Assembly (NCBI GenBank): GCA_021234155.1
Contig: JAJEKV010000011.1
Coordinates: 9,589,712-9,653,711 of the forward strand
Direction of reading: 5' to 3'
Source of the DNA: Isoetes taiwanensis
Taxonomy: Eukaryota; Streptophyta; Lycopodiopsida; Isoetales; Isoetaceae
Length of the DNA stretch: 64,000 nucleotides
The position numbers and the translations under genes were made by a program. Every line of letters begins with the position of its first letter. Position 1 is the stretch's first letter. The notes beneath the pieces were generated by a model. It ran no database searches. It saw nothing but the letters and a program-made list of their open reading frames with translations, and had not been told where the DNA came from. Positions 22,601-52,985 of this stretch are shown here, in pieces.

Positions 22601-24155
22601 GCGCCAATATGGCCGCTTGCACAATTTGTTGGCACTCATGATTTCATGGTTGCAGCTGCATCCGTTCACATCTTGAAGAATCGCCATAGCGGGGCCTTTG
22701 GGTCAATATGCTCTAGAGTTTTTATGCTACAGATTTGGATTTCGGCAGGACAAACGATAAAAGGGCATGTTGATCTCAGTAAAAAAGGTTTTTTCCCCTT
22801 CGCTTAATCTAAATGCTTTGGGCTTTTATGTAATCCGGCATGGCCAAATCTTTGTTGCCATATCTGTCTGGCAAGGCAGTGTATGCCTATGATCTCTTAT
22901 GCTCAAAAATCAAACTTTGTTACAGAAGAAGCGATGCCATGGTGCATTTCGAACTTATATATCGAGACTTCATAGGATGCAATTTTGCTTTCGGTTATGC
23001 TTCATTGCAAATAACTAGCGGTAGGGTTCGAATAGGCTCTAAATGATGCCCTCTGGCTACACATGATATTTAATGCAAAGAAGGCTATGCTATGGATGCT
23101 ATGCTATAGCACGAATTTGGAACACTATGATGCACAGCGGATCTAATATTCTCATTCAGGTCCTGTTAATATCGTCTCGGATTTGTGAGCTTTATTATGT
23201 GGATATTGGAGTTCCAAAACACAAGAGGAATGCTACAAAAGGTTAATGTTGTCTATCTGCTTCAATAACTTGAAATATATACATACTGTTATGGATTTTA
23301 ATATTATATGCTCTAGGCTCTTAAGGTTCAAAATGATGATTACACTTTGAATTTGGTGTCCATGAATTTGATTGCACCATGAAATTGTTACAACTTGTTT
23401 GCACATAGAGTGCATAAAACATATAGGTTGGATATATTTGTTGCGTACTGCAGCTTTTGGATTTTATCTCTAAACTTATAATTCGATCTCTCTTTCTGTT
23501 TAAGCTAACTCAGGGCAAAAGGATACAATTGGTGATCAGTGAAAAACTGAGAGACCCAATGTACCTTTTGGCCCTTGCATCGTTACCGGGATTACTGCTA
23601 ACGTTTGCATGATTGGCTGCAGGTACGGGTCTTTCCTCCAATTGTATTTATTTTGCTGTTAGAGTTGGCTGTAGCGTGAAGGATGTGGAATTCTCGAAAA
23701 GGACATGCACAAGGCCACTTGGAGTTTGGAGCTGTCTATATGCTGGAATATGGGCTGCAACAGTGGTGGCCTACATAATCAGAATGATTCATGTAACACA
23801 ATTATTTTAGATAATTGATACATTGATACATGTGGTATGGTCCTCTTGACTCAATTTATATATGTTTGGATAGTTTAACAGTTGATAAGCTAATGTCAAG
23901 TTTTGGGAAAAAATTTCAAACAATTGTACATAGAGTTCATAGTATATGAAATGGCACAGGATTCATATTGATGACTGTAGCAGATGGTGTACTTCTTATT
24001 TCTTACGGTTTTAATGAATAAATATTGGTCTTCAAATTACTTAGGCTTTGGGAGAAGATGTACTAGTCTAGACTGGCTTTCGGTTTAGATATTAGAATAT
24101 TAATCTTGCCAAGGGATTGACCAAAGGCGGATCTTTGGTCTAGCGTTTGCTAGTT
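16608..24155. repeat. Tandem array of ~2.8-kb non-coding units, A-B-A-B-A
   Basis: Units A at 16,608-18,556, 19,415-21,357 and 22,210-24,155 alternate with B at 18,557-19,414 and 21,358-22,209; periods are about 2,807 and 2,795. Each A starts after a T-tract with aagcattattacattgatag and ends ...gctagttc. Each B ends in a hairpin and ggtggtaggg. No frame is conserved: the longest one (about 105 codons, minus strand, first quarter of A) is altered by an indel in the third unit and resembles nothing I know. Each A has one folded module (17,904-18,021; 20,711-20,822; 23,513-23,629). There is no primer site after A and no TG...CA ends, so A is not a normal LTR. Confidence 0.9.
23513..23629. ncRNA. 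Conserved nested-stem module, A-family copy
   Basis: gggcaaaagg pairs with ccttttggccc; inside, attgg pairs with ccaat, and cagt with actg across a gaaaa loop. The conserved right part reads cccttgcatc ... gattggctgcaggtacggg. Same layout at 17,904 and 20,711, and with changed but complementary stems in the A' and C' units. Transcription is not shown by the sequence. Confidence 0.55.
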
Positions 24156-25131
24156 CAGGTTTTTTTTTTTTTTTATATATAATTTTTTCAGCCCCTTTTT
24201 CCCTCTCCTTACCTAGAGTGTGTCCAAAGTTTTCTAGTCTTTTGAGTTTGAGAGGCATTCATTCCTAATTTTTTTGGTTTTGCAATTTCTTATAGACTTT
24301 ATAAAGGTTTTTTTTCTGTATATATTGCAAATGCTTTTGACTTGTAGGTTAATATATAGTTTGTAGCATAGCTAGAATAGAGAAATTTAGTTAGATACTG
24401 ATTGTAATGGATACTAAAAATGTGTGCCTGGCGATGCCAAGCATTAGTCGTGGGTAGACATAATGGACTGTGTATAGTAGAATATGATGTGATGGGATAG
24501 GTTCAGATGCATATGCGAAATCGAATAGATTTCTTTCATGCCTCTGACTTGGATGGTTAATTCTTTGATTATTAGATCTATAAAGGGATTGATTCAAATG
24601 TAATTGGACCTTTGAGGGTTCATCCATCTTTGCTAAGATACTTTCCATGTGGCCGATTCACGTGTGTCTAAGGATGCCAGGCATTAATCATGGATGTGTT
24701 AAATCGGTAGAGTTAATGGATTTTGCATGTAGGACTAGAATATGGTAAGATTTATCATATATGTGGAATGGAGTATAAGATGTGAAGGGTACTTTGCATG
24801 ATCAATGTTCAACTCGAATATGTATCATAATAACAGGGGGTTTTCTTTGTGTTTTTGTACGCTTTTCACTAAGGTTTTCCTATGATTTCGTGATGAATTC
24901 AAATGGATGTACTAATGCGTACATCTAGAGTGCACCATTTCTGAGCCATTGATTTTAGCCTTTTTTTTTCAATGGTCAACAACCAATGGCTCACAACAAA
25001 AGCCCTTTTTTTGTGCGTGTGGGCATAATGGGCACATGAAGGGCCATTGATTTTAGCCTTTTTTTCCAATGGTCAACAACCAATGGCTCACAACAAAAGC
25101 CCTCTTTTTGTGTGTGTGGTGCACAATGGGC
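24156..25131. repeat. Spacer with a 98-bp tandem duplication next to the giant element
   Basis: Starts with a T-tract and A/T-rich sequence, no gene seen. The stretch from gccattgattttagcc (24,945) is repeated at 25,043 with period 98; each copy contains the complementary words agccattg and caatggct. The giant LTR element inserted at the right end of the second copy. Confidence 0.75.
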
Positions 25132-25136
25132 ACATG

Positions 25137-26720
25137 TGTGACGCTCCCTGAATATATACGACACCCGGCCGTATACATACGGGGAATTTCCCCTCCCATG
25201 GCGACCAACTTCGCCATGGTGGAACCCTCCGTCTATCCGGGCCATCTATAGAAAGATGCCGAAAGTGAAGGACACAGAGGGGTCATTCGGCCCACGCCTT
25301 CAATGGGACTCCTAAGTCGCGGAAGCATGAATACAAGATTAGCACACAGCATAAATATATATATAAATAACCACCACGAAGGGTGGCACATCCATCCAAG
25401 TACCAACGGCAAAGAATATGCATCTACTCCTAGGGAAAACACCCCATACCCCAGGTTCTACCCCGGCTCAGACTCCTGTGAGGATGGATTGACGGCTCGG
25501 CCTCCAGGGATCAGCAGACAGAGGTATAACCTGGCGTTGGCTGGCATAGAACAATGGCTAGGGTTGTCCATTCTATCCGCCCCTTCTGTGCACACTTTGC
25601 AGATGGGTCGATTCACGCTATATAAGCCGCTATAGCCTTCCGGGAGACGACTCAAGGCATCACCCGCCGAGCACGCTCGGGGTTCATGAAGCCCTAGTCC
25701 GATGAAGGGGTGGGAAGTGTCCCCTTCGGGATCGCGATGGTTCCATGGGTGAGCTAGAGAATACGTGCGCATCGGCGACCCCCGCATCCCGTGCGGACTT
25801 ACTCACCCTAAATCTACTCAAAGTGCATGGTGCCCTATACGGGTCACACCTCTACACCCAGGGAGTGTCAGACCCATACCCCGCCCTCTACGTGACCGAC
25901 TATCAGGCCTAGCCCACTGTAGGAGTCTCAGGAGCCTTTTATGTTCATGCAAGACCCCACCCCCACTTCACCATTGCGTCCCTTCTCTGGTGCTAAGCCA
26001 TTCCATAGCGTCTACGACCCGGTGGTCTCTTGTACACAGGCCGCAACTAATGGGAAATACAGGGATCAACCTAGGAGCATACTACTAACATGGCTCAGAG
26101 GTCTCTACCCCCTTTAATTCCCCCATTTCCAGAGTAATACTATGCAAAGAACTATCAATCCATCCTTTAAAAGCAAGACCAGAATCATAAACAAAGAGAA
26201 CTCACCTTTGCAATCAAGGGTTAGTTCCTACAGGTAAAGCACAGAGAAAGCAGAAGAGATGAACACAACAGGTGCCCAACAGGGGCGCTACTCTAAAAAT
26301 ATCAAGCTACACTAACCACCCACCTGAGTTCCTGCTGGATCCGTTGTCATTTGGTGCTTCCATCTTCCCTGGACTTGGCGCTCAGCTCTGGACACACAGG
26401 TAAAGGCGCTTAGCAAGGTGGGCGCTCAGCTGCTGCTCCTCTTGATCGATTGTGGGAGTCAATCAGGGCTAGGGGTCAAGTTGATGACCCAAATTGGAAC
26501 TTCCCATGCTGGCCAATCGAGTTAGACCAGGTGGCGCTCCCCTAAATAGCCAATTAGTCCAATTCAAATAATTGGATAATTATCCTTTAATGGTTAATTT
26601 AGCATAGCTAAATTAATCCCTTTTAGGTCAATGTCGAAATACCCCATGGTGGCGTACCTTTACTGGTGACGTGTCAGTATATTATTTATACGTATCCCTA
26701 TAAATACTTGGAACGTCACA
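25137..26720 (-). repeat. 3' LTR of the giant element
   Basis: 1,584 bp. In element sense it begins tgtgacgttcc, with tatttata just inside, and ends ggagcgtcaca. The two LTRs differ mostly by small indels and changes around CAG/CTG/CCG, so the insertion is probably younger than their raw difference suggests. Confidence 0.95.
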
Positions 26721-26733
26721 TTCTCCCCCCCTT
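26721..26733 (-). other. Polypurine tract of the giant element
   Basis: aagggggggagaa in element sense, abutting the 3' LTR. Confidence 0.92.
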
Positions 26734-27348: not shown

Positions 27349-30300
27349 CTACCCCTCTAGAGCGTCAGTCCTGGCAATCAAGCTTCCAAGCTTACCGCCG
27401 GCTGCGGGGTTGATAGCATCGTTGATGGTGTGGCCTTGAGATTCCCGCATGAAGTCCGGATAGTGCTTTTCAAGGTCTATTTTCATCACCCACGTAGCAT
27501 CTTCTGCTGGCAAGTGTTTCCACTTAACCAAGTATTGTAGCATTTGACTCCTTCTGGTCTGCTTATAGGCCCGATCAAGAAGAGCTTCAGGCACTATATC
27601 TAGATGCTCTTCTATCATTTCAAGAAGGGTGGGTGTATCCAAGATCTCCTCTGGATCTGGGGTGTGTTGTTTCAGAAGGCTCACGTGAAAGACCTTGTGG
27701 ATCTTCAAGCGGGGTGGCAAATCCAAGCGATATGCCTGCTCTCCAACTCGTTCAATGATTTTGAACGGTCCAGCCCATCTGGGTGCCAGCTTCTTGCAGT
27801 TACCAATCTTAAGCTTGGCCTGTTTTACCTTAATTTTAAGCCAAACTGATTCGCTCACCTGGAAGACTCGTGGGGTTCTGTGTTTATCTGCTACACTCTT
27901 CTGACGACTGCATGCAGCCAATAAGTAACCACGAACTTCCTCAACCAAAGCTTGCATTTCTAAGAGGAGTTGTTGAGAAACCTCCACTTTGGAAACGGGG
28001 TTATGCCATGTGTCTGGAGTAAGACATTGATAACCATAATTTATCATAAAGGGAGACATTCTGGAAGACTCCTGTTTCATGCTGTTATAGGCAAAGTCGA
28101 CCAGATAAATATAGTCAGCCCATTGTGACTGCTTACTCCACACATAAATTCATAGCATATCCTCTATGATGCGATTGGTACGCTCTGTCTGACCATCTGT
28201 CTGAGGATGATATGCCGTACTCATAGCAAGCTTGGTCTGGATGGTGGCAAAGAAGTCTTTCCAAAATGCACTTACTAATTTGGGATCCCTGTCGGATACA
28301 ATAACTCGTGGCATTCCGTGCAATCTGAAGATCTCCTTTGCAAATAGCAGAGCAGTATCGAATGCTGTATCCGTGGTACGACATGGCAAGAAATGAGCCA
28401 TTTTCGACAATTTGTCGACCACTACCATCAATGCATCATATCCACGGAGAGTACGTGGAAGGCCCACAATGAAATCCATGGTTATTACTTCCCACTTAGC
28501 GTTGGGCACATCCAGAGGTTGCAACTCTCCTGGAATCCTTAATTGCCCAGCCTTGGTTTGCTGACATACCTGACACTACTTAATGTACCTAGCAATATCC
28601 TTCTTCATAGAAGGCCAGAAATAACTGGAGCGGATCTTAAAGTAGGTCTTCATATTAAAACCTGCATGTCCGGCTATAGGGCTATTATGCGTGTCATGGA
28701 GAATTGGCTTACGTACTCCTGAAGTCTCAGGTACACACAACTTATCCTTGTAATATAACAAGTTGTCCTCTTTCTTATACGAACAGAAAGCTTCACGTTC
28801 TTTATCTGTGCGTGCCTCCTTATTCAAACTATCCCAAACTTCACGGAACTCGGGATCTGTGGCCAAGGTCTGTTCTATTTGTTTTCCAAACTCACTAATG
28901 GGTAAGAGCATGTTAGGGCCTACATGTTTTGGAAACTACCTGGAAAATACTCTGGGTAGTCAAAGATGATGATATATTTGAGTTCTTAACATCTTCTTGA
29001 CATCACAAAATACCTTACAACATGTATGTACTACTACTCTTGAACATAACACAATTTCTTTTAGTCAATCTTGTAGTCTAGGTACTTTAAAATACAATTA
29101 TGTACTTGCACAGAAGTACACAGAAAAGTACCTTTTTGGTAATTTTTTATGTAGGCCCTAACATGCTTTCACCCTAATGAGTGTGGAAATTGCGTTACAA
29201 TGGGTTCGGGTTGCGTGACAATGCATCCGCAACCACATTGTGCTTCCCAGGCTTAAACATAATCTCAAAATCATACTCCTCGAGAAACTCCATCCATCTT
29301 CTCTGACGGAGATTGAGATTGGGCTGGGTTGTTAGGTAACGGAGACTCTGATGATCCATATCCAACTGGAATCTTCTACCACGAAGGTAGTGTTTCCATA
29401 TACGCAGAGCACGGACAACGGCTAACAATTCCTGATCATGGGTAGGGTATCGTTGTTCAGTCTCATTCATTTTCTTTGAATCATAGGCAATAACCCTCCC
29501 CTCCTGCATTAGAACTCCACCGATAGCAATTTTACTGGCATCCGTTGCTAATAGTTTATCCTTTTCAGGGTCTGGCAATGTGAGGACTGGTGCAAACGTT
29601 AAAGCATCCTTAAGCTTTTGAAAACTTCCCTGGACTTTTGTTTTCCAATGTTCAAGTGCTGCAATCTTTGCGAAATCCTTAACAAATCTCCGGTAATATC
29701 GCGCTAATCCTAAGAAACTTCGGACCTCTGAAACATAACCTGGAATGGGCCAATCCTTCACTGCCTCTATTTTTGATGGATCTGTAGCAATTCCCTCTGC
29801 TGAAATGACATGTCCCAAATAATCCACCTTCGGAGTGGCAAACTTGCACTTAGAAAACTTGGCAAAGAGTTGGTGACGTCTTAACTTTTCTAGGGCCAAC
29901 CAAAGATGTTTCTCATGCTCCTCCAGGGTCTTACTGTAGATGAGAATGTCGTCAAAGAAAATAACAACAAAATCATCCAAGTATTGTCGGAAGACATCAT
30001 TCATTAACCGCATAAATGTTGCGGGGGCATTAGTTAATCCAAAAGGCATAACGGTAAACTCATAATGCCCATATCTAGTGCGAAAGGCAGATTTATGAAT
30101 GTCCTCCTCCTTAATTCTTATTTGATGGTATCCGGAGCGTAAGTCAATCTTTGAGAAATACTTGGCCCATTGCAACTGGTCCATAAGATCGTCTGCTCTA
30201 GGTAAAGCATAGCGATTCTTGATCGTATGCTTGTTAAGTTGTCGATAATCAATACACATCCTTAAGGAGCCATCCTTCTTCTTAACAACAAGGATAGGAG

Positions 30301-32368
30301 CACCAAAAGGTGAAACACTAGGCCGAATGAAGCCTAGGTTTAATAGCTCCTGAAGTTGCTTCTTAAGCTCTGCCAATTCAGGGGGACTCATACGGTACGG
30401 GGTCTTACTGGTAGGCTTAATACCTAGTTCCAAAGCTATTTCACATTCCACCCCTCTGAAAGGAGGAAGCTTCTGGATCTCATCTGGAAAAAGATCGCTA
30501 AATTGTCGGAGAAGATTAGCAATCCCTTCTGGCAAGGTGTCGATTACTTGCTTCTGCTTAACATCTGACTCAATGGAGGCAAGTCTAATGATGCAGATGA
30601 GCTTATCCTTGCGTATAGCTTTTTCTAAGTGTCTGATGGACATAGACTGCATAATAAGGTTGAATGGATCACCTTTTATAGTCACGCGGGCTCCATTAGC
30701 GGCGTTGAAGGTAACTTCCCGTTTCTCGCAGTCTATATTAGCCTTTGCAGATGCCAAGAGTTCCATACCAACAATGAGATCATATTTGCCAATATCCATT
30801 AACTCGGCACCCAAGGCAACTGGTGCACCTGGCAACTGCATTCTAAGGTTAATGCGACGGCCATGAGTGTGTCGGATCTTACCACTGGCTAAAGTGACAA
30901 GCTTCGGTCGGGATCTCAAAGTTTCAAGCTGCAATACCTGGGCCATTCTAGGAGAAGCAAAGTTATGTGTACTACTCGTATCCATCAGAAATATGAAAGG
31001 TTTGCTGTCTACTTGACCTATGGTGGAAATAACTTGGGGGTGACTTTCAGCATTGCCGGTTTCAATGCCTGCAAGGATATGGGACTCACCGTGAATGTAT
31101 TCGGGAGCCTCCTCCTCGATAGGTGGTGTGGACTCAAGGTCATCCCAATCGAGGTCGGCCATGGCCAGCTAGGTAGTCTGCGTTACATAAGGACAATTCT
31201 GCATGAAGTGCCTGGGCCGCATACACCTGTAGCATGCCTTATCTCGGCGGAGCTGTTCTCGAGCCTCTTTGGGAATGGACTATAAGAGGTTCCGAACTTC
31301 ATTACCGACATTGTTTGGTTTATCGGGCGTGCTGAAGGTGACCTTCTTTTCCTGGCGGCCGGAGGAGTTCTGCTGAGAGGGCCCCGGACTCGGCGAACGA
31401 CCCTTGTAAGGTGTGTATGGGCACGGCTGCGAGTAAGGTGCTGGACGTTGGTACTGGCTTCGCGGCGTGTCCTCCTCAAGGCTCAATGCCTTAGCCTCAG
31501 CCTCTGCAACTGACTTGGGATCTATGGCCTTAACCATTCGTTTAATTGATGGAGCCAACCCTTCAATATAACCTTCCACCGCCCTCTTTTCATTCATACC
31601 CGGCACATATAGCCTCAGGCGCATGAATTCATCAGTGTAGGCCTGAACTGACATGCCCTTTTGCTCCAACCGGTAAAAAGTTTGAATCTGTTGGCATTTG
31701 TGCGCACGAGGCACGTAATGCGACTTAAAGGCTTTGGCAAACTTTTTGAACTTGCACCTGCTTCTGTCCAGATGCTTGGCTCTGGCATAGCCCTTCCACC
31801 AAATACGGGCAGCTCCGGTCAGGTTTGTGGTGACAACCTTTCCTGTATCCTTTTCTGTCATACCGTAGGATTTTCCAAACTCCTTCATCTCGTCCAACCA
31901 GGACTCTGCATTCATTCCTCCTCTAAATTTCCCATCAAACTGGGCCAGTTTTCTATTTTTCCATATACTTGTTATGGCCGTATCAACCGTCTTACGGTAC
32001 TCCTTATCCCGGCGCTTCGCATGGTCACCAGATGATACAAACGACTCAGAGGACACAGAAGTGGCTGATTGTGAGGAGGTGGCACTATCCCTAGAGGAAC
32101 TCTGACGTCGTTTAGAATGGTGCCTCCTTTGTGCAGGCACGGGGCCTGGTTCAGGTGCAAGTGGCTGCTGGGGTGGTGGACTTGGCGGCAATGGAGGTAA
32201 CTCCGGTCCATCCTCCTGTACATGCTGCGGTGGGTTGGCATTCAACACATAAGTTTGTAACTCGACTAATTGCCTCTTCATCAACATAAGTTCATGTTCA
32301 GGTGTTAGTCTACTGGCATTCGAGGGCGTCTGCCAGGCGGCGTTGCGTGCACCGTCTATATTGAGCAT
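27349..32368 (-). pseudogene. gag-pol of the giant element (gag, PR, RT, RH, IN, chromodomain)
   Basis: One frame from ATG 32,368 to TGA near 27,349, interrupted by stops and a foldback element. Gag (31,280-32,368): Pro-rich start, capsid (WLDEMKEFGKSYG, RIWWKGYARAKHL), then knuckle CYRCMRPRHFMQNC after a TAG at 31,280. A second TAG (31,169) stands before pol. Pol from 31,162: protease with D-T-S (residues 61-63) where the family has D-T/S-G; RT with FFDD (402-405); RNase H Asp541, Glu578 and Asp603 intact. Stops TAA 29,195 and TAG 29,174 lie in the linker. Integrase: HHCC broken by TAG 28,576; DDE residues intact in MDFIVGLP, VIVSDRDP and GQTERTNR; TGA 28,150. GPY/F module and a chromodomain (YLVKWKHLPAEDATW) end it, defining a chromovirus. 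Confidence 0.93.
28913..29161. mobile_element. 249-bp foldback element between RNase H and integrase
   Basis: Ends are ttagggcctacat and its exact inverse atgtaggccctaa, flanked by catg on both sides (28,909-28,912; 29,162-29,165). Element plus catg is 253 bp; removing it restores one frame across pol, which supports a 4-bp duplication. Interior carries ggtacttt/aaagtacc words like the foldback element in the copia RT. No coding capacity. Confidence 0.85.
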
Positions 32369-32612
32369 AAAAAGGTATAAGCCGAATCATAGTGACATCA
32401 AGTCTCACAAAGAAGATCATTTCGAATAGTATTTAGAGAGAGAATAAATAGAAGAGTACAATAGAAAATATCTTTATTATAAGTGAGAACAGTTGTTACA
32501 TTAGAGATCATTACATTGGTAGTGACAAAACTTAAAGTGATATAATACAGAGATACAGTGGACAATTCCTAAATCACACGTAAGCATAGAAGAAAAACTG
32601 AGGGGACCGGAC
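32369..32612. other. Spacer between gag and the third extra frame
   Basis: A/T-rich, no frame recognised. Could hold the gag leader. Confidence 0.4.
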
Positions 32613-33266: not shown

Positions 33267-34667
33267 CTAGGAACTAGGTCCCTCCTCTGCGTCCATAGGC
33301 CGGGGAGGTGGTGGCGGCGGTCGATGTCGTAACAGAGTCACCCCTGGGTCTACTGTGGCAGCTGCAATGGAGGCGACCTCTGGCGGATAGGCGGTAGCCA
33401 ATGGGGCCGCCGTAAGGAGCTTCATACTCATCCATGGTGCAATATCCTGCCCCAATGCAGTGAGGGCAAGATCCCGTCAGACGAGTACGTAAGTAAGCGT
33501 GCGATAGGGAAGCTTCTTGTGCCCTGCCAATGTGGAAAGAGCACGGAGGGTCCACCACGACGCCTCGGCCTCTGGCCCTAAGTCCCGGGCTACAAAAAGG
33601 ACTTGCCCCTGCCGGAAAGCTGATAGGAAGAAGCGGGTAAGGTGATTCCCCAACACCTTCCCTTGTGGGGTCTCTGACGTGGCAACCTCCTTATCTAAGT
33701 CCATAGGGACTTCTTCTTCCTTGCGTTTCTCCTGCTCTTCCTTCAAATGAGCAGGGTTATGGTATAGATCCTCTCCCTCCTCTTCCGAATCGGAGGGAAC
33801 TTCGACCATATTAATGTTTGGGACATGAGGCCTCATAGCTGTAAAGGCATCCGGTGAAGGCTGAGATGGCGGATCCTGCATCACCAGTTCCCGAAGCCGT
33901 AGCAAGGTTTCAGCCGGCGCTATGGTCTTCTGGTGGAATTGGAGTATCTGCTGTACCTTCTGGGGAAGGTCAATAGGAGTAAAGTCGATGAAATCATCCA
34001 TACAGTACTCTGCTAACTCATAGAGTACATGGTCCTTGCGTCGATGCTTAAACCCGTCCACCATGTGATAAGTCCAGATGATATCATCCAAGAGAAGGTA
34101 CTCTTGCCCTTGGTGATACACAACTGGAAGGATGTCTAGCCCGGACAAGCGTGCAGCTTGTTCCCGACGTGGTGGCATCTCCTCGGCCAACTGCTTCCAA
34201 CGGACGAAGTCACCCATGCCTATGTGCTCATCCTCTTCCTCCTCAAAAGACTCAGGAAGTTTGCCTTTCTCTGCCGGCAATGTCTCATCCTCAACGTACT
34301 GATCCATGAGGATGGCTAGGGCAAAGGCAACTTCAAGATATTGTCACCCCTGATGCTGCACAACTGGCAGCTGCTTGCCCCATCTAAGCTTGCCCTTCAA
34401 CACATCATATGCGTGGGTGTCACCCCCTAGCATATCTCGGACTACATCCCATTCTAGATACAACTGGGGAGGTTCCCCAAGAGGAATACACAAAGGAAGC
34501 ATCTCCTCTGTATAAAACTCTAGGAATCCGGCATAATCTGGGTGCCGCTGCATATTAGAGATGAGGTCAAGGCGCTGGCATAGAAAGGGCCGTAATAGGT
34601 CGAAGGGCACCTGTGGATCCCAATGCTCTCCATCCTGGTACCATGCAAGTAGGTCGGTGGCAGCCAT
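33267..34667 (-). pseudogene. Second extra gene of the giant element; possible H2A-like C-terminus
   Basis: One frame from ATG 34,667 to TAG near 33,267, about 466 residues, with in-frame TGAs at 34,344-34,346 and 33,477-33,479. N-terminal part (LLAWYQDGEHWDPQVPFDLL...FLEFYTEEMLPLC) is weakly like the N-terminus of the neighbouring H3-fusion protein (DP...DILL...YHYSEQ). A middle block (DFIDFTPIDLPQKV against [14 protein letters not shown]) also matches. A charged linker (PSDSEEEGEDLYH, EEQEKRKEEE) follows. The C-terminal ~90 residues (LTRFFLSAFRQ...LSTLAGHKK...YRTLTYVLV, then RDLALTALGQDIA) resemble in spacing the H2A segments RFL, LELAG, NKK, PRHIQLAV and the L-LLG-TIA docking region. Seen: frame and blocks. 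Inferred: diverged histone fold, low certainty. A truncated copy lies at 52,350-52,809. Confidence 0.6.
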
Positions 34668-34858: not shown

Positions 34859-36124
34859 CTAAGGACGCTCTCCCCGAATCCTGCGGGCGAGGGCCAAATC
34901 CTTTGGCATTATGGTGACTCTCTTTGCGTGGATAGCGCAAAGATTTGCATCATCAAAAAGTGCCACTAGGTAGGCTTCTGCAGCCTCTTGAAGCGCTAGG
35001 ATGGCAAAAGTCTGGAAGCGGAGATCGGTTTTAAATTCTTGCGCTATCTCCCGAACCAACCTTTGAAAAGGCAGCTTCCGTATCAGAAGTTGTGTGGACT
35101 TCTGAAACTTACGGATCTCCCGTAAGGCCACGGTACCGGGTCGGAACCGGTGGGGTCTCCTTTGTGGAGCAGGGTTGGGAGGCGGCCCCCTTTGCCGTGG
35201 TATCGTCTTGGCCCCAACAACAGGACGGGGCCGAGAGGCATCCACCCGCTCCTGTCTCCGGCTAGAACTCGCGTTCTTCCCAAAAGCTCCGACAGTCTTC
35301 AACTTCTCCTTGTACTGGTTGCCGGACTTTCGGGCTACGTCTTTTCTCCGGTGTTTAATGGGCGTCCGGTCCGTCTGATTCGGCCCCTGCTCATTCTCTG
35401 GTCCCCCATTACCCTGCTGGTCATGCTGTTCTTGTTGGGCCTTCTCCTCCTTTTCCTTTTGGATCCTTTCCTGCTCTTCCCGGAACTCCCGAGCTCTCCT
35501 GAGGTCTTCTTCAACCTCATTGTACCGTCGCTCTACAATGCGGCGAAGAAGTTCCGCATGGTATCGATTGGGTCGCTGGCTCATATCGATTTGGATTGTC
35601 GTCAAATAATCCAGACTGATGTCAGGAATCTCTCCCCACATAAAGCTCTGGGAAGCTTCATGCCACTGATATGGGGGAAGCTCGATTGCCCTACCATCAA
35701 TGACGGCGACTCCATCCCCTAGATACCTATACTCTCGTCCCCGAGCCGCCGTATCGGCTCGTTCTATCTCTCTGCGGTCATCCTCCCTGGCCAAGTTCCG
35801 GATACGGTCGGCCTCTGTTCTTATGTCCTCCTCTTCAGTGTGTCCCGCACATTCAGGGGGGTAAAATTTAATCATCATCATGACCAAGTCAGGTTGCTCG
35901 GCCATGGTATAAGGAAGTTGTCGGAGATTCAGCCTAACCATAAACTGCTCCGAGTAATGGTAGATGAGATAGGGTATCCTAGCGTCGTTGGCAAATCTAT
36001 TTACCAACTCATCCAGAAGTATATCAATCAAAGCAGGGTCAGTAGCCAAATGCTGGGCGATCAAAGCATAGATCTGGGCGATAGTGAGGGTAGTGGGGTC
36101 CACGGTACTCTTGGTGGTGGCCAT
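34859..36124 (-). CDS. Histone H3 fusion protein encoded by a retrotransposon
   Basis: Intact 421-codon frame. Residues 324-421 are a complete H3 core, matching H3 positions 38-135 from [15 protein letters not shown] to RRIRGERP with roughly a dozen substitutions. It includes alphaN, alpha1-3, Lys56, Lys79, Cys110, His113 and Lys122 equivalents. Loop 1 has no insertion, so it is canonical H3, not CENH3. Phe at H3 position 41 is as in plant H3.1, while Leu at 90 is as in H3.3, and position 87 is Phe. The normal 37-residue tail is replaced by ~323 residues: an unknown domain (1-185), a charged helix or coiled coil (190-235), an Asn/Gln-rich linker, and a basic tail with an ARKS word (264-267) like the H3 Lys9/Lys27 context. 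No introns. Probable role: nucleosome or chromatin engagement by the element; inferred only. Second, damaged copy at 52,986-54,227. Confidence 0.95.
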
Positions 36125-36336
36125 AGCTATATGGCGAGGTCTAAAGCGTGGCGTGAGGTGAGGTGGGCGATTAGGAAGACGGTACGGAAGGCGCTAGGGG
36201 TAGAGAAGGCGATGGAGAAAAGCCAAGGTGGCAAAACAGGGTCGGTTTCGGTAGCTATGGTGGGCGGAGGCGCGGTAAAACTAAAAAGTTAACGGGCGCC
36301 TACCCTTTAAAGTTTAAAAGTTTTCTTGTTTTTTTT

Positions 36337-36344
36337 TTTTTATA
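36337..36344 (-). promoter_or_regulatory. Possible TATA box upstream of the H3-fusion gene
   Basis: tataaaaa on the minus strand about 210 bp before the ATG at 36,124, at the junction with the non-coding block. It lies in an A-tract, so it may be chance. Confidence 0.25.
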
Positions 36345-37431
36345 AAGCTTGCACGATTCATTTAGCTGTGCACCTTAATGTACTATCTTTTGATGGATCT
36401 AAATTGGAGGTTTGGTTCAATATATATGAAAGCTTATTGTTGGCATATCTCACCTTTATATTGTTGCCAGTACTGATTGAAGCGGGGTGTGGGGCGCCCA
36501 TGGTCTAATTATATACTGGTCCAATAAGTTGTAGCCGTATCAAATTACTCTATACTTCAGGTTTTTTAAGAGGAACATACAGTGAAAAATATCCTCTTAA
36601 AGAGTACAGCCATTGGGCATTCTATAACGTGTACTAGGGCTTTGCCAAAATAGGTTATATATTCATTCTTATTTAGGGTTCAAAGCGGTCTGGAATCTGG
36701 CCGACCCTGCATAGATATTCTTAGCTTGACCCATGCCTTTTCGGCAGATGATGCTAATGTAGCGGATCTGTCTTGAATCATTTTCCTGGGCACATATAAA
36801 GGCTGAATGGATAGGTATTTGCATCATACCTTGATAAGCAGGACTCCGATGTGATGAGTCATGGTTGTGCAAGGAAATAGCATTTACATGTACAGTTTCG
36901 GATTTGGATCCAGATTACTCCTTGTGCTTTTTAAACTCTGATACTGAGCATTATGATAAACTGTAAAAGGCCAAAAGTGATAGACTCTTTTCATAATGAT
37001 TTTTGAAAGTATAAGTATGGCTGTGGACATGGAGGCCGGCAGTAATATCAGAGCAATGGTGAAGCTTCCCATTTTGGCTTAAAAGGAAGATGTGCTTGGG
37101 TCACGACATTAACCAGGTATGGCAGTGATCCCGTTTATAAAAGAAAGTAATTCATATTTCGGTTGAGAATCCACTTGTATATTAAGGCTGTAAGGCAAAA
37201 GGTATTTTATAGTTATTGCCAGATTGGTAGGAATGAGATTAATCTATATGGTCATTTTGTATCAACTGTTCCCTCTTATTTTGCTGAATACTTCTAGATG
37301 CCTTTGGCGGATTTAACCTATAAAGTGAAAGGCCTTTTCTTGGTCATCTTCTGTAAATGAACCCAGTGGTGGTTATACTCTCTCATCTGTCATGATTTAT
37401 GTCAAATTACTCTAAGTTCTTTTTTGTATTT

Positions 37432-37545
37432 GGGCAAAAGGATTACATTAGGTGATGGGTTAATAGCAGAAGCCTAAGGTACCCACAGCTCTTGCATCTT
37501 TACCCTTATCAGGCTAATGATGTATTGATTGGCTGCAGGTACGGG
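37432..37545. ncRNA. Conserved nested-stem module, A'-family copy
   Basis: Outer stem gggcaaaagg/ccttttggccc (right arm partly lost in this copy), middle stem ttagg/cctaa, inner hairpin cggtt-aat-aaccg (one base changed here; perfect at 40,489 and 58,519). Followed by the conserved cttgcatc ... gattggctgcaggtacggg. Confidence 0.55.
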
Positions 37546-39351
37546 CTTCTCCTCTTAATGTTTTCCTTTTGTCCAATATATTTTAGGAGTTCTTGGGATT
37601 TTGGCATACGAACGAGACGGGAGCTGGCAAGGCTGAAGTTCATTTAAATGGTTACAAGAAAATGTTTATTACTGCTCGTATGATATGGCTGTGGCCTATA
37701 CCAAAACTCTTTGGTGATGTTTTTCTATTTCTCATAACTATAGTGCTCCATTAGGTGTATGCTTTATTGTAGGAACAACTAATTCTTCCTTGGATTGCTT
37801 TAACGTATAAATGGCATATCCGGGACTTGAATAATTAGAGGTCCATATTATCTATGAAATAGTTGGAAATATCTTGCTTGGCTGTATTTCCCTATGGTGC
37901 AAGCATCGTATAATGAAGTTTGGTTATGGCTTAAATCTCCTGTAACAGACTTAAAACTGCCCAGTGTAGTATTCAACTTTTTCTAAGTTGCCCTCACCGA
38001 CTTTCAACCCGGGAACTTGTATATTTGGAAGTACCATGCAGTACTTCTTTTTGTAAGAAAGCTCATATTATATTATAGTGTTTCTCCACTGTTTAGACTG
38101 GTCACAGTTGGTTTCATATGCTAAAGGATATTATTATATGACAAAGAATATTTAGAATGGTTTTTATCATTGCAATATGCTAGTCTGATTTCAGAATATG
38201 GATGTCATGTAATGCAATGTCGTATTTGAAAAACCATATCGGTTGAAAAGGAAAGATATTATTGATCTTGGTGATAACATATCGCAAGAAAGTTTTTTTT
38301 AATGTTAGTAATAAAGATGCTATTTTTTTCCTATGGTCCTTTTGAGCACAACGTAGAGTCTTTGGTTACTTATGTTGTAAACCGTAGTCCTACATTATTT
38401 ATTAGGCATTTGGGAACATGATTCATTGGCATTTTATGGTACTTGAACTTGAAGTCTTGTTTGAGTATGATTATATTAGGATTTAATCGTTTTCCCTAGA
38501 TTTATGGTACCATCTTGGATTGAAAAGTCCCTGTATGGCCGGATAAAGGCAATTGTGGGATTGACCAATCTTGATGTTTGAGCTAGGCTTAACTAGTTCA
38601 AGCCGGTTTTTTTATGATACATTGCATGCATTGGTCTTATCGGTCTTTGCCATAGGTCCTTGGTTAGGTTTCATATTTGATTGCATATTAAGGCTTTGTG
38701 ATGGATGATGAAAATTATGAAGAGTCCGAGTTCAAAAAGGCGAGTCCTTCTTGGTATTCAATACTCGGGAACTGGGGTTATGACTGGTACAATAGGAAGG
38801 TCCTAAATTTATTATGTTGTCAAAAGGTATCAAAAAATTCCAGAAACGAAATGCCCAATCGGTCTTAAAGGTAATTCTTTGACCAAATTTATGATTAGAC
38901 CATAAAAGATGATTACTCCAAATGAGTATTTGTGGCTCTCGAGGATTCAATTACTCATTATGCGTTATCCAACATTCTTCGCCACAATTGCCACTTGGCA
39001 TGTCACTATGCTTGAAGCCTTATTGTTATTCTAGTTGATAACAGGCTTTTCATAAATATTACTGATGTATCATTTGGCATCAAGGCCATTATTGCCACTC
39101 GGCTGATATACAAGGCCACTTGGCTTAAATGCATGCTGTATGATGACAGGTTCATTAGCTGGAACTCAGTTTCATTCCATGGAGCTTGTGCAAGTTCTTA
39201 ACAACCACTTCTAAGTTTAAGGTAAATAAGTGTATGTCTAGTTGGCATCTAGTCTCCAGGGAAGTGGTAGATGCCTTTGACAATTACTTCTTGATTTAAG
39301 GAAAGTGTGCCCTGCATTATAATGGCATCTAAAATTGGTTGCATGGCATGT

Positions 39352-39400
39352 ATAGGGTGTGGTTTGGCTCCTGCTATGAGTAGGGGACAGCCACCCCTAT
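39352..39400. ncRNA. Hairpin near the end of B'
   Basis: atagggtgtgg pairs with ccacccctat around an inner ggct/agcc stem. An equivalent hairpin of different sequence (gggcatggca.../...tgccatccc) sits at 19,303-19,347 and 22,100-22,144 in B, and a copy at 57,391-57,439. Confidence 0.5.
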
Positions 39401-42400
39401 TTCAGAAATTTAAACAGGAATCATCGTGTTGCCACACTCTACGGTTGGAGGTAGGGTTTTTTTTATAAAGCTTGCACGATTCATTTAGCTGTGCACCTTA
39501 ATGTACTATCTTTTGATGGATCTAAATTGGAGGTTTGGTTCAATATATATGAAAGCTTATTGTTGGCATATCTCACCTTTATATTGTTGCCAGTACTTAT
39601 TGAAGACGGGTGTGGGGCGCCCATGGTCTAATTATATACTGGTCCAATAAGTTGTCAAATTACTCTATATCAAATGAAAAATATACTTCACTAGGGCTTT
39701 GCCAAAATAGGTTATATATTCATTCTTATTTAGGGTTCAAAGCGGTCTGGAATCTGGCCGACCCTGCATAGATATTCTTAGCTTGACCCATGCCTTTTTG
39801 GCAGATGATGCTAATGTAGCAGATCTGTCTTGAATCATTTTCCTGGGCACATATAAAGGCTGAATGGATAGGTCTTTGCATCATACCTTGATAAGCAGGA
39901 CTCCGATGTGATGAGTCATGGTTGTGCAAGGAAATAGCATTTACATGTACAGTTTCGGGTTTGGATCCAGATTACTCCTTGTGCTTTTTAAACTCTGATA
40001 CTGAGCATTATGATAAACTGTGGAAGGTCAAAAGTGATAGACTCTTTTCATAATGATTTTTGAAAGTATAAGTATGGCTGTGGACATGGAGGCCGGCAGT
40101 AATATCAGAGCAATGGTGAAGCTTCCCATTTTGGCTTAAAAGGAAGATGTGCTTGGGTCACGACATTAACCAGGTATGGCAGTGATCCCGTTTATAAAAG
40201 AAAGTAATTCATATTTCGGTTGAGAATCCACTTGTATATTAAGGCTGTAAGGCAAAAGGTATTTTATAGTTATTGCCAGATTGGTAGGAATGAGATTAAT
40301 CTATATGGTCATTTTGTATCAACCGTTCCCTCTTATTTTGCTGAATACTTCTAGATGCCTTTGGCGGATTTAACCTATAAAGTGAAAGGCCTTTTCTTGG
40401 TCATCTTCTGTAAATGAACCCAGTGGTGGTTATACTCTCTCATCTGTCATGATTTATGTCAAATTACTCTAAGTTCTTTTTTGTATTTGGGCAAAAGGAT
40501 TACATTAGGTGATCGGTTAATAACCGAGAAGCCTAAGGTACCAACACAGCCCTTGCATCTTACCCTTATCGGGCTAATGATGTATTGATTGGCTGCAGTA
40601 CGAGCTTCTCCTCTTAATGTTTTCTTTTGTCCGATTATATTTTAGGAGTTCTTGGGATTTTGGCATCTGAGAGCAGAGGCGGGGAGTTGGCAAGGTGAAG
40701 TTCATTTAAATGGTTACAAGAAAATGTTTATTACTGCTCGTATGATATGGCTGTGGCCTATACCAAAACTCTTTGGTGATGTTTTTCTATTTCTCATAAC
40801 TATAGTGCTCCATTGGGTGTATGCTTTATTGTAGGAACAACTAATTCTTCCTTGGATTGCTTTAACGTATAAATGGCATATCCGGGACTTGAATAATTAG
40901 AGGTCCATATTATCTATGAAATAGTTGGAAATATCTTGCTTGGCTGTATTTCCCTATGGTGCAAGCATCATATAATGAAGTTTGGTTATGGCTTAAATCT
41001 CCTGTAACAGACTTAAAACTGCCCAGTGTAGTATTCAACTTTTTCTAAGTTGCCTACTGACCTTCAACCAGGAACTTGTATGACTGGAAGTACCATGCAG
41101 TACTTCTTTTTGTAAGAAAGCTCATATTATATTATAGTGTTTCTCCACTGTTTAGACTGGTCACAGTTGGTTTCATATGCTAAAGGATATTATTATATGA
41201 CAAAGAATATTTAGAATGGTTTTTATCATTGCAATATGCTAGTCTGATTTCAGAATATGGATGTCATGTAATGCAATGTCGTGACTGAAAAACCATATCA
41301 GTTGAAAAGGAAAGATATTATTGATCTTGGTGATAACATATCTGCAAGAAGGTTTTTTAATCTTAGTAATAAAGATGTTATTTTTTCCTATGGTCCTTTT
41401 GAGCACAATGTAGAGTGCTGGTTACTTATGTAACTTTGTAAACCGTAGTCCTACATTATTTATTAGGCATTTGGGAACATGATTCATTGGCATTTTATGG
41501 TACTTGAACTTGAAGTCTTGTTTGAGTATGATTATATTAGGATTTAACCGTTTTCCCTGGATTTATGGTACCATCTTGGATTGAAAAGTCCCTGTATGGC
41601 AGATAAGACAGCTGCGGGATTGACCAATGCTGATGTTTGAGCTAGGCTTAACTAGTTCAAGCCGGTTTTTTATATATGCATGCTGCTTGTTGGCTTTTCT
41701 TACTCATATTTAAAAGAGTGTAACTGAATTGCAAGTTTTACTCCAGCGAATTAGACCTTTGGACCCAGGCTGACCCAGGCATACATTTGCTTGTGAGGTA
41801 AATCCGTGGGGCAGTCTACCCAATTATTTTTTCCATGAATTAATAAATTATGGCTACTCCTTTATTGTGGAGGGTTTTCATTTCTTCTATGGTATAACTA
41901 TACCATCGGGATAATTCTGTGTGGCCAAGGGATACCTAAACGAATCTCAAGTTCTCATTCTCTACCTATTTTACCTACTGGCATGGCAGTGCTGCGGTAT
42001 GCAAATTGGAGCTCCCAAGTGTCTGCCATGAGAAATTCTGCGACCTTGGCATGGATTTGCTAGGCTCTGTATATTTATAGATCAAAGCTGAAAAGAAAAG
42101 ACTATTTCGCATTGAAACCCTTAGGGTTTGTGCTCATGTAGGCGATGTCGTCTGTGCAAAGAAAGATATCCATTTGAACTTAGACAGATATTTGTTGGGC
42201 TATGCCCAACGTTTCTGGCAGATTATATTTAAATAGAAATGGTGCATGGACTCTTGAGACTAGATTTTAGAGGACGGATTTCCCCTCTCAGACTCAACTC
42301 AACTCAGATCATGTCCAAAAGTTGCATCTTTACGGGATCTTTGCTTCTGCTAAAGAATCCTTTTACATCGGTTAACTTTCCATTTCTGATATGGAGGTAT

Positions 42401-43112
42401 TTGAGGTCGTTGTGGAAAGCCGATCTAGCTTCTTGCATGCAAAATGTTGCCTTGGGCGATCTATTCTGCAAAAGGATACAGTCGTGGAAGGTTTAGGAGA
42501 GGTTGCCATCTACTCAATAAGAGAACTTGTGGCCTTTTCAAGCATAGCCATGGAGATTCGTCTCAATCTGTGCAGTGCCAGAAACTCAGACTGAAGATGA
42601 CACAATGCCTTGGACTAAAGATAATCAGGTAAATTAGTGCATTGTGCGTAGATAAGATTAATGGCTTATAAAATAGGATGCAAGTGCTGTGATAGGATTT
42701 AAATACTGAAAATGATTATGGCTGATGGCGTCTTTAAAATTGAAGGTGAGCACAATAAAAGTATTTTAGTATCGATGGGCTTACATTCATTTCATAATAA
42801 GAATATGGTATTTAGCTGCAATTACTGGGACCTTTATGCACAGTGAATAGTGAATATGAAGCACCCTGATTGGGTTCGTTAATTTGATGGCTATTATGCA
42901 TAATTTAGCATTTGCATGTTCTATTTGGAAGGCTAATGATTATAAGACTGGTACGAGGGCTCTGGTTATAATAATGTTGTTTATCCTGGTTATTCAAGAT
43001 GTTTTTCTGAACCATTTTGCTTTAATAGTTTATTTGCATTATGATGTAGTTCTCTTTGTCTTATATTTAAACTAAACTAAGTTTATTTCCTGCCATGCTC
43101 ATTTAATCTTTT

Positions 43113-43229
43113 GGGCAAAAGGTCTACATTAGGTGTTCGGTTGACAACCGAGAAGCCTAAGGTACCTTTTGGCCCTTGCATCTTTACCCTTATCAGGCTA
43201 ATGATGTATTGGTTGGCTGCAGGTACGGG
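43113..43229. ncRNA. Conserved nested-stem module, C' copy
   Basis: gggcaaaagg/ccttttggccc, ttagg/cctaa and cggtt-gac-aaccg are all complete here. Flanking sequence of C' differs from A', so the module is the part that is kept. Confidence 0.6.
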
Positions 43230-44472
43230 CTTCTCCTCTTAATGTATTTCTTTTGTGCAAACTGTATTAGGTGAGCTTGGGAGTTTGCAGTCGATAGTGA
43301 CCAAGATCAAAGTTTGACTATGGTTTGGCTGAATGCATGACTATGGAAGTTTAGGCTGAAAATGTGATCGAGGTGTGATCTCATCTTTGTTTTTGCTCTA
43401 CATTTCTCCATACCAAGGTACTCTGCTAAAAAGTCTTTTTGAGACTACTGCATAACGTTTTGAGGATATTCAGTTATGTTGACATACAGTTCATATTTTA
43501 AGCATTAAAGTAATATTATTTCATGATTATATGCAGTTTGGGGTGCTGGTTCTACCAGCATGACCAAGCTTTCTAATTTTACAAATGTACTTGATCTTTC
43601 TTGTGTGCTATTTGTACTGGCAGCAATAAGCTCCATGTTGTTTGGTACTATTGACTTAAAAGTTTAGTCCTCATACTATTCTTCGTTCCGTTGTTTATGC
43701 TTGCTATGCTTGATGTCGCAAATTATATTTCAGGGGTCTCTAAAATACAGTATATGCTGTTGTCTCATGTTAATCCCTTTTATCTAATAGGAGTGGTTGC
43801 TAGCTGTAACTGATTTAACAGAATGCTTTACTGAACACATAATGTAGCTGTCAATAAGTCAGGTTATGACAAGGAACATGACAGTCCAGTTTATGTGGAA
43901 TCTGGTGTAATTGGTTAAGAAATATAACTTGGCATTTCCATATGTTTATTTCGGATCAGTATGTAAAACTGATAGTAAGGTCTCGCTTGCACATTTGTTT
44001 GAGACTGCATCCTTGAAAAATATGGTCATGTACACAGAATGCAAGAAGTTGATGCGTGCATAAATGGTTGACGTCTTTTTGTGGCAAGTGGCAAGGTTGC
44101 ATAAGGGTGCAAATTGCTGTTGCATTTCAGAACAGTAGATTAAAATATAGTGTTCATGGAATAGTGTTTATCTATATTCAGTAGACAAGAGTTATATTGT
44201 TATAGCTCTAATTGTGTCCATTAGGAATTAGGCATAATGCCTATTTTACTTGGACCTCTCAATGGCTTTTCAGTAGGAGTGTTGTAAAATGGTTAGATAT
44301 TTTTGTATCTGTATACCAAGGAAAGGTTTGTTATATGATAACATAGATGCCGTATACCAGGAAAGGATGGTACCATCTAGGACTTAACGGTTCTTGTATG
44401 GCGGATAAAGGCAATAAGCTGGATTGACCAATAGTTTGATGTTTGTGCTAGTATAGACTAGTTCAAGCCTCC

Positions 44473-44907
44473 TTTTTTTTTTTAATTTATTTATAGGGCA
44501 TTGTTGGAATACATACCAAAGAATATCACGGTATGGCCGACAACATTATCTGGCAGCTCCTACCGCGGATGTAGATCGAGAAAAAGCAAAGCTGCGCCGA
44601 GTTGACTTCGGGGGCCCCTCCTTGACTCCTTTCCGCTTGTTGATGATCCTCCTAGGGTTTTGGGTATGCCCGATCCATTGGAATCACTTTCGCCTTCATC
44701 TGAACTACCTACAAAAAGTTATAGCCCCTCCAAACTTGGGTCCTCCGGTTGCCCTAAGCCTCTTAAAACTTACAATCTACTACATCAACCTAGCACAAAA
44801 CCAAACATCAAAGAGTCAAACAATCACACTAGTTTAAACTTCCACCTAACTACCGAACTAACGAGTTAGAGTTTGGTCAGTGCTATGATTTCGAGCAATC
44901 GAAATCA
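44473..44907 (-). other. Leader of the giant element between PBS and non-coding block
   Basis: About 435 bp, nearly identical to 63,290-63,705 in the second copy. No frame in element sense. An opposite-strand frame of ~100 codons exists but is Ser/Pro-rich without recognisable domain. Confidence 0.7.
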
Positions 44908-44921
44908 CGGCTCTGATACCA
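44908..44921 (-). other. Primer-binding site of the giant element (tRNA-iMet type)
   Basis: tggtatcagagccg in element sense, one base after the 5' LTR. Confidence 0.93.
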
Positions 44922-44922
44922 C

Positions 44923-46496
44923 TGTGACGCTCCCTGAATATATACGACACCCGGCCGTATACATACGGGGAATTTCCCCTCCCATGGCGACCAACTCGCC
45001 ATGAGCAGGGCCCTCCGTCTATCACGGGCCATCTATAGAAAGATCCACAGTGAAATTACCACGGAGGGTCATTCGCCCATGCCTTCAATGGGACTCTAAA
45101 GTATGCGGAAGCATGAATACAAGGTTAGCACCACGGCGTAAATATATATATAAATAACCACCACGAAGGGTGGCACATCCATCAAGTACCAACGACAAAG
45201 AATATGCATCTACTCCTAGGGGAAAACACCCCATACCCGGGTTCTACCCCTTTCGGGACTCTGTGAGGATGGACTGATGGCTCGACCTCCGGGGATCGTG
45301 ACAGAGGAGGTATAACCGGCGTTGTTGGCATAGAAACGATGGCTAGGGTTGTCCATTCCATCCGCCCCTCCCATGCACACTTTGCGGATGGGTCGATTCA
45401 CGCTATGAAAAGCCGCTATAGCCTTCAGGGGAAGATGGGACTCAAGGCATCACCCGCCGAGCTTGCTCCGGGGTTCATGAAGCCCCTAGTCCAGATGAGG
45501 TGGTCAAGGAAGTGTCCCCTTCGGGGATTGATGGTTCCATGGGTGAGCTAGAGAATCGCCGCATCCGGCGACCCGCATCCGTGCGACTTACTCACCCTAA
45601 ATCTACTCAAAGTGTATGGTGCCCCATACGGGTCACACCTCTACACCTGGGGAGTGTCGGACCCATGCAGACCCCCCTCTATGTGAGGAGACTATCGGGG
45701 CCTAGCCCGGCGTAGGAGTCTCGGGGGGAGCCTTTTATGTTCATGCAAGACCCCACCCCCACTTCACCTGCTGCGTCCCTTCTTTGGTGCTAAGCCATTC
45801 CATGGCGTCGTCTGACCGGTGGTCTCTTGTACCGCAGGCCGCAACTAATGGGAAATCTGAGGGGATCAACCTAGGAGCATACTACTAACATGGCTCAGAG
45901 GTCTCTACCCCCTTTAATTCCCCCATTTCCAGAGTAATACTATGCAAAGAACTATCAATCCATCCTTTAAGAGCAATACCAGAATCAGAAACAAAGAGAA
46001 CTCACCTTTGCAATCAAGGGTTAGTTCCTACAGGTAAAGCACAGAGAAAGCAGAAGAGATGAACACAACAGGTGCCCAACAGGGGCGCTACTCTAAAAAT
46101 ATCAAGCTACACTAACCACCCACCTGAGTTCCTGCTGGATCCGTTGTCATTTGGTGCTTCCATCTTCCCTGGACTTGGCTCCACCGACTGGACACAGGTA
46201 AAGGCGCTTTTTAGCAAGGTGGGCTCATTTCTTTGCTCCTCTTGATCGATTGTGGGAGTCAATCAGGGCTAGGGGTCAAGTTGATGACCCAAATTGGAAC
46301 TTCCCATGCTGGCCAATCGAGTTAGGCCAGGTGGTGCTCCTCTAAATAGCCAATTAGTCCAATTCAAATAATTGGATAATTATCCTTTAATGGTTAATTT
46401 AGCATATCTAAATTAATCCCATGGTGGCGTACCTTTACTGGTGACGTGTCGGTATATTATTTATCATTATCCCGTATAAATACTTGGAACGTCACA
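44923..46496 (-). repeat. 5' LTR of the giant element
   Basis: 1,574 bp, partner of 25,137-26,720. Its outer end abuts acatg, which duplicates 25,132-25,136. Confidence 0.95.
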
Positions 46497-46501
46497 ACAT
46501 G

Positions 46502-52349: not shown

Positions 52350-52809
52350 GACGAAGTCACCCATGCCTATGTGCTCATCCTCTTCCCTCCTCAAAGACTC
52401 GTGAAGTTTGCCTTTCCCGCGGCAATGTCTCATCCTCAACGCATCGATCCATGAGGATGGCTAGGGCAAAGGCAACTAAGATATTGTCACCCCCGGATGC
52501 CGCATTAACCGGGCAGCCGCTGTTCCATCTAAGCTTGCCCCTTCAACACATCATATGCGGTGTCACCCCTAGCATATCTCTGACTACATCCCATTCTAGA
52601 TAAACCGGGAGGTTCCCAAGAGGAATACACAAAGGAAGCATCTCCTCCAGATAAAACTCTAGGAACTGCATAATAACTGTGCCGCCGCATATTAGAGATG
52701 AGGTCAAGGCGCCGCATAGAAAGGGCCGTAATAGGTCGAAGGGCACCGTGGATCCCAATGCTCTCCATCCCGGTACCATGCAAGTAGGTTTGGCACCATG
52801 GGCTTGGAA
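52350..52809 (-). pseudogene. Truncated copy of the second extra gene
   Basis: Corresponds to about 34,200-34,667 of the first element, including the PFDLLRPFLC and SLPLCIPLG-like region, with several frameshifts. Left end is the truncation point of the element. Confidence 0.85.
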
Positions 52810-52985
52810 GGGAGGAGGGAGGGAAGAGAAACAAAATATAAACAAATGAAAATGAAACTTTAAAGATCCTTTTAACCCTTTATTTATGCTGGCGTCAGCA
52901 TTTTCGTACACAATACAAGAACAAAATGTAGATTTTTATTTAATATAACAAAAATATTTACAACGCAGACATTCTCCAAAATTTA

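Follow-up and report, generated by a model that had tools for sequence, protein, structure and literature searches.

The DNA analyzed here (the window) is a stretch of 64,000 nucleotides from the genome of Isoetes taiwanensis, the minus strand of which carries a complete but decayed Ty3/gypsy chromovirus with LTRs, a 5-bp TSD, a PBS, a polypurine tract (PPT), gag, pol, and a type-II chromodomain. The parts of this element are given below, followed by those of another copy of the family, which is broken and runs off the edge of the window:

46497–46501: TSD ACATG, right
44923–46496, minus: 5' LTR (TGT...ACA), from self-blastn
44910–44921, minus: PBS TGGTATCAGAGC
36125–44922, minus: long 5' leader with 3.06-kb direct repeats
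34859–36124, minus: ORF-A, 421-aa fusion of a novel N-terminal region and an H3 core
35525–36124, minus: ORF-A residues 1–200, novel domain
35390–35524, minus: ORF-A residues 201–245, acidic charged helix, pI 4.6
35156–35389, minus: ORF-A residues 246–323, basic linker standing in the place of the H3 tail
34862–35155, minus: ORF-A residues 324–421, H3 core corresponding to H3 positions 38–135
33477–34667, minus: ORF-B, second accessory gene
31280–32386, minus: gag (Ty3_capsid, Retrotrans_gag)
29195–31168, minus: protease, reverse transcriptase, RNase H
27349–28935, minus: integrase (H2C2, rve, SH3), interrupted by stops
27448–27594, minus: chromodomain, type II (PF00385, 2e-8)
26721–26733, minus: PPT
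25137–26720, minus: 3' LTR, from self-blastn
25132–25136: TSD ACATG, left
52341–64000, minus: second, broken copy of the same family
63721 onward, minus: LTR of the second copy
54270–63720, minus: leader of the second copy
53016–54202, minus: ORF-A pieces of the second copy, including H3
52341–52935, minus: ORF-B pieces of the second copy

ORF-A is the first gene of the element and ORF-B sits between ORF-A and gag. The order of the domains which follow (gag, PR, RT, RNase H, integrase) is that of Ty3/gypsy chromoviruses, the chromodomain being located at the C-terminus of the integrase. The PBS is of a type which we take to be that of the initiator-tRNA-Met. The two LTRs are 88.6% identical (self-blastn), and their divergence (K2P 0.123) indicates that the copy in the window is not young. 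The leader between the LTR and ORF-A measures about 0.65–0.78 kb in nine of the ten other copies checked and about 8.8–9.5 kb in the two copies of the window, the leaders of which (36125–44922 and 54270–63720) share the 3.06-kb direct repeats. The initial annotation of this DNA had described a TSD-bounded Ty3/gypsy element in which the fusion frame is open and gag-pol has stops. The LTRs, the ACATG in both flanks, and the gag-pol domains bear this out, and so does the state of the genes: gag and PR-RT-RH are open in pieces, stops interrupt the integrase, and a single in-frame stop is present in ORF-B. The picture was incomplete in that it included neither ORF-B, the PBS, and the PPT, nor the second, broken copy. 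In the chromodomain, W45 is present and Y24 and Y48 are absent, and six aligned copies likewise lack Y24 and Y48; a W45 retained in the absence of Y24 and Y48 is given as the mark of group II chromodomains in the part of PMC3350952 used here.

Other features are present in the remainder of the window. A large direct duplication (18010–24166, spacing about 2.8 kb, 94–95% identical) adjoins the element. An element of the Ty1/copia type is present in pieces (RVT_2, zinc knuckle) on the plus strand at 3641–8404, and the left end of the window (216–2176, minus) contains diverged fragments of the reverse transcriptase and integrase of another Gypsy-type element. An open frame of 550 aa with SNF2-type helicase domains (12749–14398, minus) is presumably a gene of the host with a function in chromatin or repair.

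The ORF-A frame runs from an ATG at 36124 to a stop codon at 34861–34859, encoding 421 aa; the plus strand has stops there. The intact 421-codon frame initially annotated is therefore real, and so is the complete, gap-free H3 core noted in its last 98 residues: residues 324–421 align without gaps to H3 38–135 (Pfam PF00125, 5.2e-41), match the PDB H3.3 chain 7ux9_E (1.1e-52), and contain the whole histone fold and alpha-N, as the alignment with host H3 also attests. Histone was the only family above the cut-off in the Pfam scan of ORF-A. The tail with K4, K9, K27, and K36 is absent and is replaced, as first described, by about 320 novel residues (1–323) including the charged helix and the basic linker. 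Residues 1–200 have a pI of 5.0, residues 246–322 a pI of 11.9, and the H3 core a pI of 11.1. When the two parts were searched separately, the core was identified as H3 and the N-terminal part had no relatives in the libraries searched: neither this part nor ORF-B had any relative in the protein database among 4472 candidates or among the 8000 best-sharing candidates, none of the 43 pattern matches of the N-terminus in IMG/VR was confirmed by the profile search, and no relative of the N-terminus was found in PHROGs. Structure prediction of the whole fusion and of residues 1–215 gave mean pLDDT values of 44 and 40, respectively, which are too poor for fold comparison. The linker motif K-x-G-x-QYK...RR is retained in most copies. 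An ARKS motif in the linker of the window copy was considered as a possible mimic of K9, and many copies read AHKS or AHKA; since the motif is not strictly conserved, the idea of a tail mimic is weakened.

ORF-B is about 465 aa long in intact copies and open in many copies. It contains two LPVV-x-HQG-x-x-YL repeats and an acidic stretch, and no domain or protein-database relative was found for it in the libraries searched. The possibility that ORF-A and ORF-B might be mutual duplicates was rejected, the profile comparison having given no match.

The genome searched comprises 1,658,258,908 bases in 1110 contigs. With ORF-A as the query, 99 loci (including that of the window) among 16,575 first-look candidates were scored as carrying all or much of the fusion, at 72–100% identity, and the match is free of stops in 55 of them; the fusion is therefore not due to chance, and the proposal that it is encoded by a retrotransposon holds across the family. 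Loci of about 10 kb were inspected for the 20 matches ranking next after the window; all 20 contained pieces of ORF-A and ORF-B, and 17 contained pieces of gag as well. In a sample chosen independently of H3, consisting of 20 ORF-B loci (ranks 2–50) absent from the ORF-A and H3 lists, the H3 core was found upstream at the expected place in 18 loci, one other having its last 18 residues and one having none. An assembly join, which the initial annotation had regarded as a possible source of error, is thus excluded. Among the matches to a plant H3, the best 15 were full-length, with 96–98% identity, and were taken to be host H3; the remaining 135 of the 150 scored matches (the best 150 of 9022 first-look candidates) showed 71–86% identity, and all the loci inspected among these 135 were of the element type. 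The H4 query gave 43 matches from 69 candidates, 16 of which are intact genes. The 69 H4 candidates, as compared with 9022 for H3, show that H4 has not been amplified alongside H3, and an H4 partner would therefore come from the host.

ORF-A occurs in several types. Copies L057 and L059 belong to type 2 and L058 to type 3; they are 41–45% identical to the ORF-A of the window over the aligned part and retain its layout, with a related N-terminus, a linker, and an H3 core. Queries with types 2 and 3 gave 94 and 102 scored candidates, respectively, in lists which may overlap. A truncated H3 fusion (L056, C1014:353960–354880), 42.6% identical over the aligned part and reading LLGVL at H3 86–90, is possibly a fourth type. 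About 270 bp downstream of the ORF-A of L057 there is a gag-pol about 90% identical to that of the window, and no ORF-B (L057/L061, C1019:5370050–5379480); a diverged ORF-A beside a window-like gag-pol may be read as a sign of module exchange or loss. Downstream of L058, ORF-B (40–51%) and gag (37–50%) were found, with no pol within 8 kb. In a type-3 copy (L062), an acidic open frame of about 204 aa lies between ORF-B and gag (1784–2395, plus).

In a survey of 110 gag loci 88–94% identical to the gag of the window, ORF-A was found upstream in at least 47 among the matches listed, namely type 1 in 18, type 2 in 16, type 3 in 11, and an unassigned H3 in two. The fact that very different ORF-A types occur on nearly the same gag-pol points to an exchange of the 5' genes. 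The spacing between ORF-A and gag is within 3.6 kb in 44 of the 47 loci, and mostly 2.3–3.2 kb. The initial annotation had asked whether copies of the family lack the H3 part, and here the answer is divided: beside these loci with an ORF-A, none was seen upstream of the other 63 among the matches listed, and gag-pol copies without ORF-A may exist, ORF-A being perhaps absent from, or dispensable for, many copies. The H3 part is neither part of gag nor a substitute for a zinc knuckle, gag being a separate gene and the intact gag L061 retaining its knuckle. Among 14 type-1 copies, the ORF-A distances track those of ORF-B closely (rho 0.87) and those of gag less so (rho 0.59). The tree of H3 cores places 16 element sequences in one group with weak support (91/85, open fork), which is consistent with a single capture.

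Over H3 37–135, 85–86 of the 99 residues are identical to those of four host H3 genes, and the nucleotide match is only 69–70%, which indicates that the capture is old and that selection has maintained the protein sequence. CENH3 has a divergent fold and a longer loop 1; the gap-free core, with its close identity to canonical host H3, is therefore not a CENH3. The substitutions are shared to a large extent: Y54F, S86T, S87F, V89I, G102A, T107A, and I124L occur in all 27 intact type-1 copies, E105G, Q125A, and A135P in 26 of these 27, and E59 is replaced in 24. The three copies of types 2 and 3 share V89I, T107A, and I124L with the type-1 copies. Throughout the 30 intact copies, R49, R63, L65, R83, F84, Q85, C110, H113, K115, V117, T118, D123, L126, A127, and R129 are unchanged from the host; we take these 15 residues to be contacts with DNA, between H3 and H3', or with chaperones. 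The known contact residues for DNA, H4, and H3-H3' are retained in the intact copies apart from single-copy exceptions. The contact or surface changes amount to K56N, R69K, R72G, K122T, and R131W in one intact copy each and a change of R128 in two, and K64R is present in both type-2 copies. The retention of nearly all the residues known to touch DNA favours real incorporation into nucleosomes.

The stretch recognized by chaperones, H3 86–90, was surveyed in 68 copies, 58 of which were readable and 10 not. The host reading S[S/T/H]AVL (four genes) is changed to [T/A][F/H]AIL in 56 of the 58 (TFAIL in 53, AFAIL in two, and THAIL in one, the other two copies reading TFPIL and LLGVL). Isoleucine is normal at position 89 in animal H3.3 and in yeast H3, and V89I alone is therefore a weak clue. 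Three single viral H3s read SAIL or TAIL at this stretch and share AIL at 88–90 with the fusion, according to the part of PMC9145170 used here, and we think that the AIL common to the fusion and the viral H3s is the best clue for loading into nucleosomes.

Selection was assessed by the Nei-Gojobori method, comparing the window with the top copies, which were found by their likeness to ORF-A and included broken ones. The dN/dS values obtained were 0.12 for ORF-A (20 copies), 0.15 for the C-terminal part of ORF-B (20), 0.12 for gag (15), and 0.13 for PR-RT-RH (13). The check in other copies initially proposed thus placed ORF-A close to gag and RT. In a second set of 30 intact ORF-As, from which L055 (a duplicate) and L056 (truncated) were left out, values were averaged by identity bin. 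These averages were 0.02–0.05 for H3 in all bins and, above 60% identity, 0.07–0.11 for residues 1–200 and 0.19–0.25 for the linker. Pairs with saturated or undefined dS were dropped from the dS means (48 of 118 in the 60–80% bin for residues 1–200; below 60%, most of the pairs), and the values of single pairs vary more, reaching 0.13 for H3 among those printed. The choice of intact copies alone does not lower missense change, and the comparison of the window with the top copies took in broken ones too. In the copies examined, purifying selection acts on ORF-A as strongly as on gag and pol, which shows that it is useful, not which use it has.

These data establish that the first gene in an abundant lineage of chromoviruses encodes an H3 core which looks fit for nucleosomes and the tail of which has been replaced. 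We consider it somewhat more probable than the contrary (about 0.55) that this tail-less H3 of the element enters host nucleosomes with H4, putting an exchangeable module of the element in the place of the tail that bears silencing marks. The fusion would pair with host H4, be loaded by host H3 chaperones, and reside in nucleosomes. As K4, K9, K27, and K36 are gone, such nucleosomes could not bear the marks on which the silencing of elements in plants depends, and would instead display the N-terminal module of the element itself, which might recruit a partner from the element or the host. The most likely use would be to keep the chromatin of the element (new copies or cDNA) out of silencing based on the H3 tail. 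The occurrence of very different N-terminal types before nearly the same gag-pol would agree with an anchor that stays constant and a head that varies. A broader view, in which a class of retroelements makes its own chromatin by means of a tail-less H3, anchored in nucleosomes through its near-invariant core, and of fast-diverging heads swapped between elements sharing one gag-pol, so that a nucleosome encoded by a mobile element would rewrite the histone tail at the site of silencing, is put forward tentatively, the odds being somewhat against it.

Other uses of the fusion were also considered. It might mark nucleosomes which the integrase then finds via the N-terminal module or via H3, the element thereby supplying its own landing mark. 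The type-II chromodomain lacks the residues which read methylated K9 (Y24 and Y48 in the window and the six aligned copies), its partner in plants is stated as not found in the parts of PMC3350952 and PMC6317226 used here, and many of the 20 copies inspected have both ORF-A and the integrase within a single element. Type-II chromodomains are widespread in plant elements (PMC3350952), however, and no H3 was seen reported for those in the part of that paper used here, so that we regard a tether of this kind as rather improbable.

It is unlikely that the fusion serves in packaging, whether H3 and host H4 wrap or condense the cDNA or ride in the particles, with the N-terminal domain binding Gag. 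The strongly basic linker and H3 (pI 11.9 and 11.1) and the distance from ORF-A to gag where ORF-A was found upstream (mostly about 2.3–3.2 kb) would suit such a role, but the intact gag L061 keeps a zinc knuckle of its own, and the conserved nucleosome surface exceeds what a packaging peptide needs. Titration, in which the fusion would deplete the cytoplasm of H3 chaperones or H4 and thereby weaken replication-coupled silencing without entering chromatin, agrees with residues 86–90 being altered much alike in 56 of the 58 readable copies; it would not need contacts with DNA, and the fact that most of the DNA-contact residues are unchanged in the 30 intact copies makes it quite unlikely. Host genes are known to be trapped in mobile elements, but that an H3 fragment or retrogene was captured by accident and is passively carried along in a single copy, or that the join arose in the assembly, is scarcely credible in view of the 99 scored loci, the lists of 94 and 102 for the two other types, the H3 core in 18 of the 20 ORF-B loci from outside the H3 lists, and a dN/dS as low as that of gag, which already contradicts passive cargo, for which a value near 1 is needed.

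If the fusion enters nucleosomes, as the preferred reading has it, a transposable element would govern the histone through the tail of which it is itself marked for silencing. This would provide a direct test of whether it is sufficient for escape from silencing that the nucleosomes on an element lack K9 and K27, and would perhaps supply the partner of the plant type-II chromodomain, which is called unidentified in the parts of PMC3350952 and PMC6317226 used here. Parasite-encoded histones would also extend from DNA viruses to retrotransposons, with many copies and several diverged types in one genome.

The initial annotation knew of no described family with this layout, and in the open-licence literature searched we likewise found no published retroelement encoding a core histone. 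The chromoviruses of non-seed plants, such as SM-Cranky and SM-Diluvium of Selaginella (PMC3350952), share the LTR, the PBS, the gag-PR-RT-RH-INT order, and a type-II chromodomain at the C-terminus with the element in the window; the latter differs from them by two extra genes before gag, one of which is an H3 fusion, and the parts of PMC3350952 and PMC6317226 used here mention no element-borne histone gene. The giant Gypsy of orchids with an AlkB RNA demethylase (Gypsy_Pa_2799) is likewise a large Gypsy in which a captured host gene has been retained across subfamilies, but it carries an enzyme and its RT is sister to Ogre, whereas the element studied here is a chromovirus carrying a core histone (PMC9289625). 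In section 12 of the same paper, no histone is listed among the domains given for its survey of 121 angiosperm genomes.

Among viruses, the single H3s of xenomavirus, Dishui Lake phycodnavirus, and sylvanvirus have core identities of 73–87% and sometimes a longer N-terminus (PMC9145170, a review the main text of which does not contain the word retrotransposon). These H3s belong to DNA viruses and have extra tails of about 35–68 residues (PMC9145170), whereas the fusion has about 286 extra residues and is located in an LTR retrotransposon, and is therefore not itself a single H3 of a DNA virus. The bracovirus histone CvBV-H4, too, is a core histone encoded by a parasite; its tail is extended, and it joins host nucleosomes and changes expression (PMC9145170). 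It is an H4 with a short tail in a wasp-borne virus, whereas the fusion is an H3 in a retrotransposon. As an LTR element which has captured a gene of its host, the fusion element is of a known kind, and its role in chromatin, if shown, would be new in kind.
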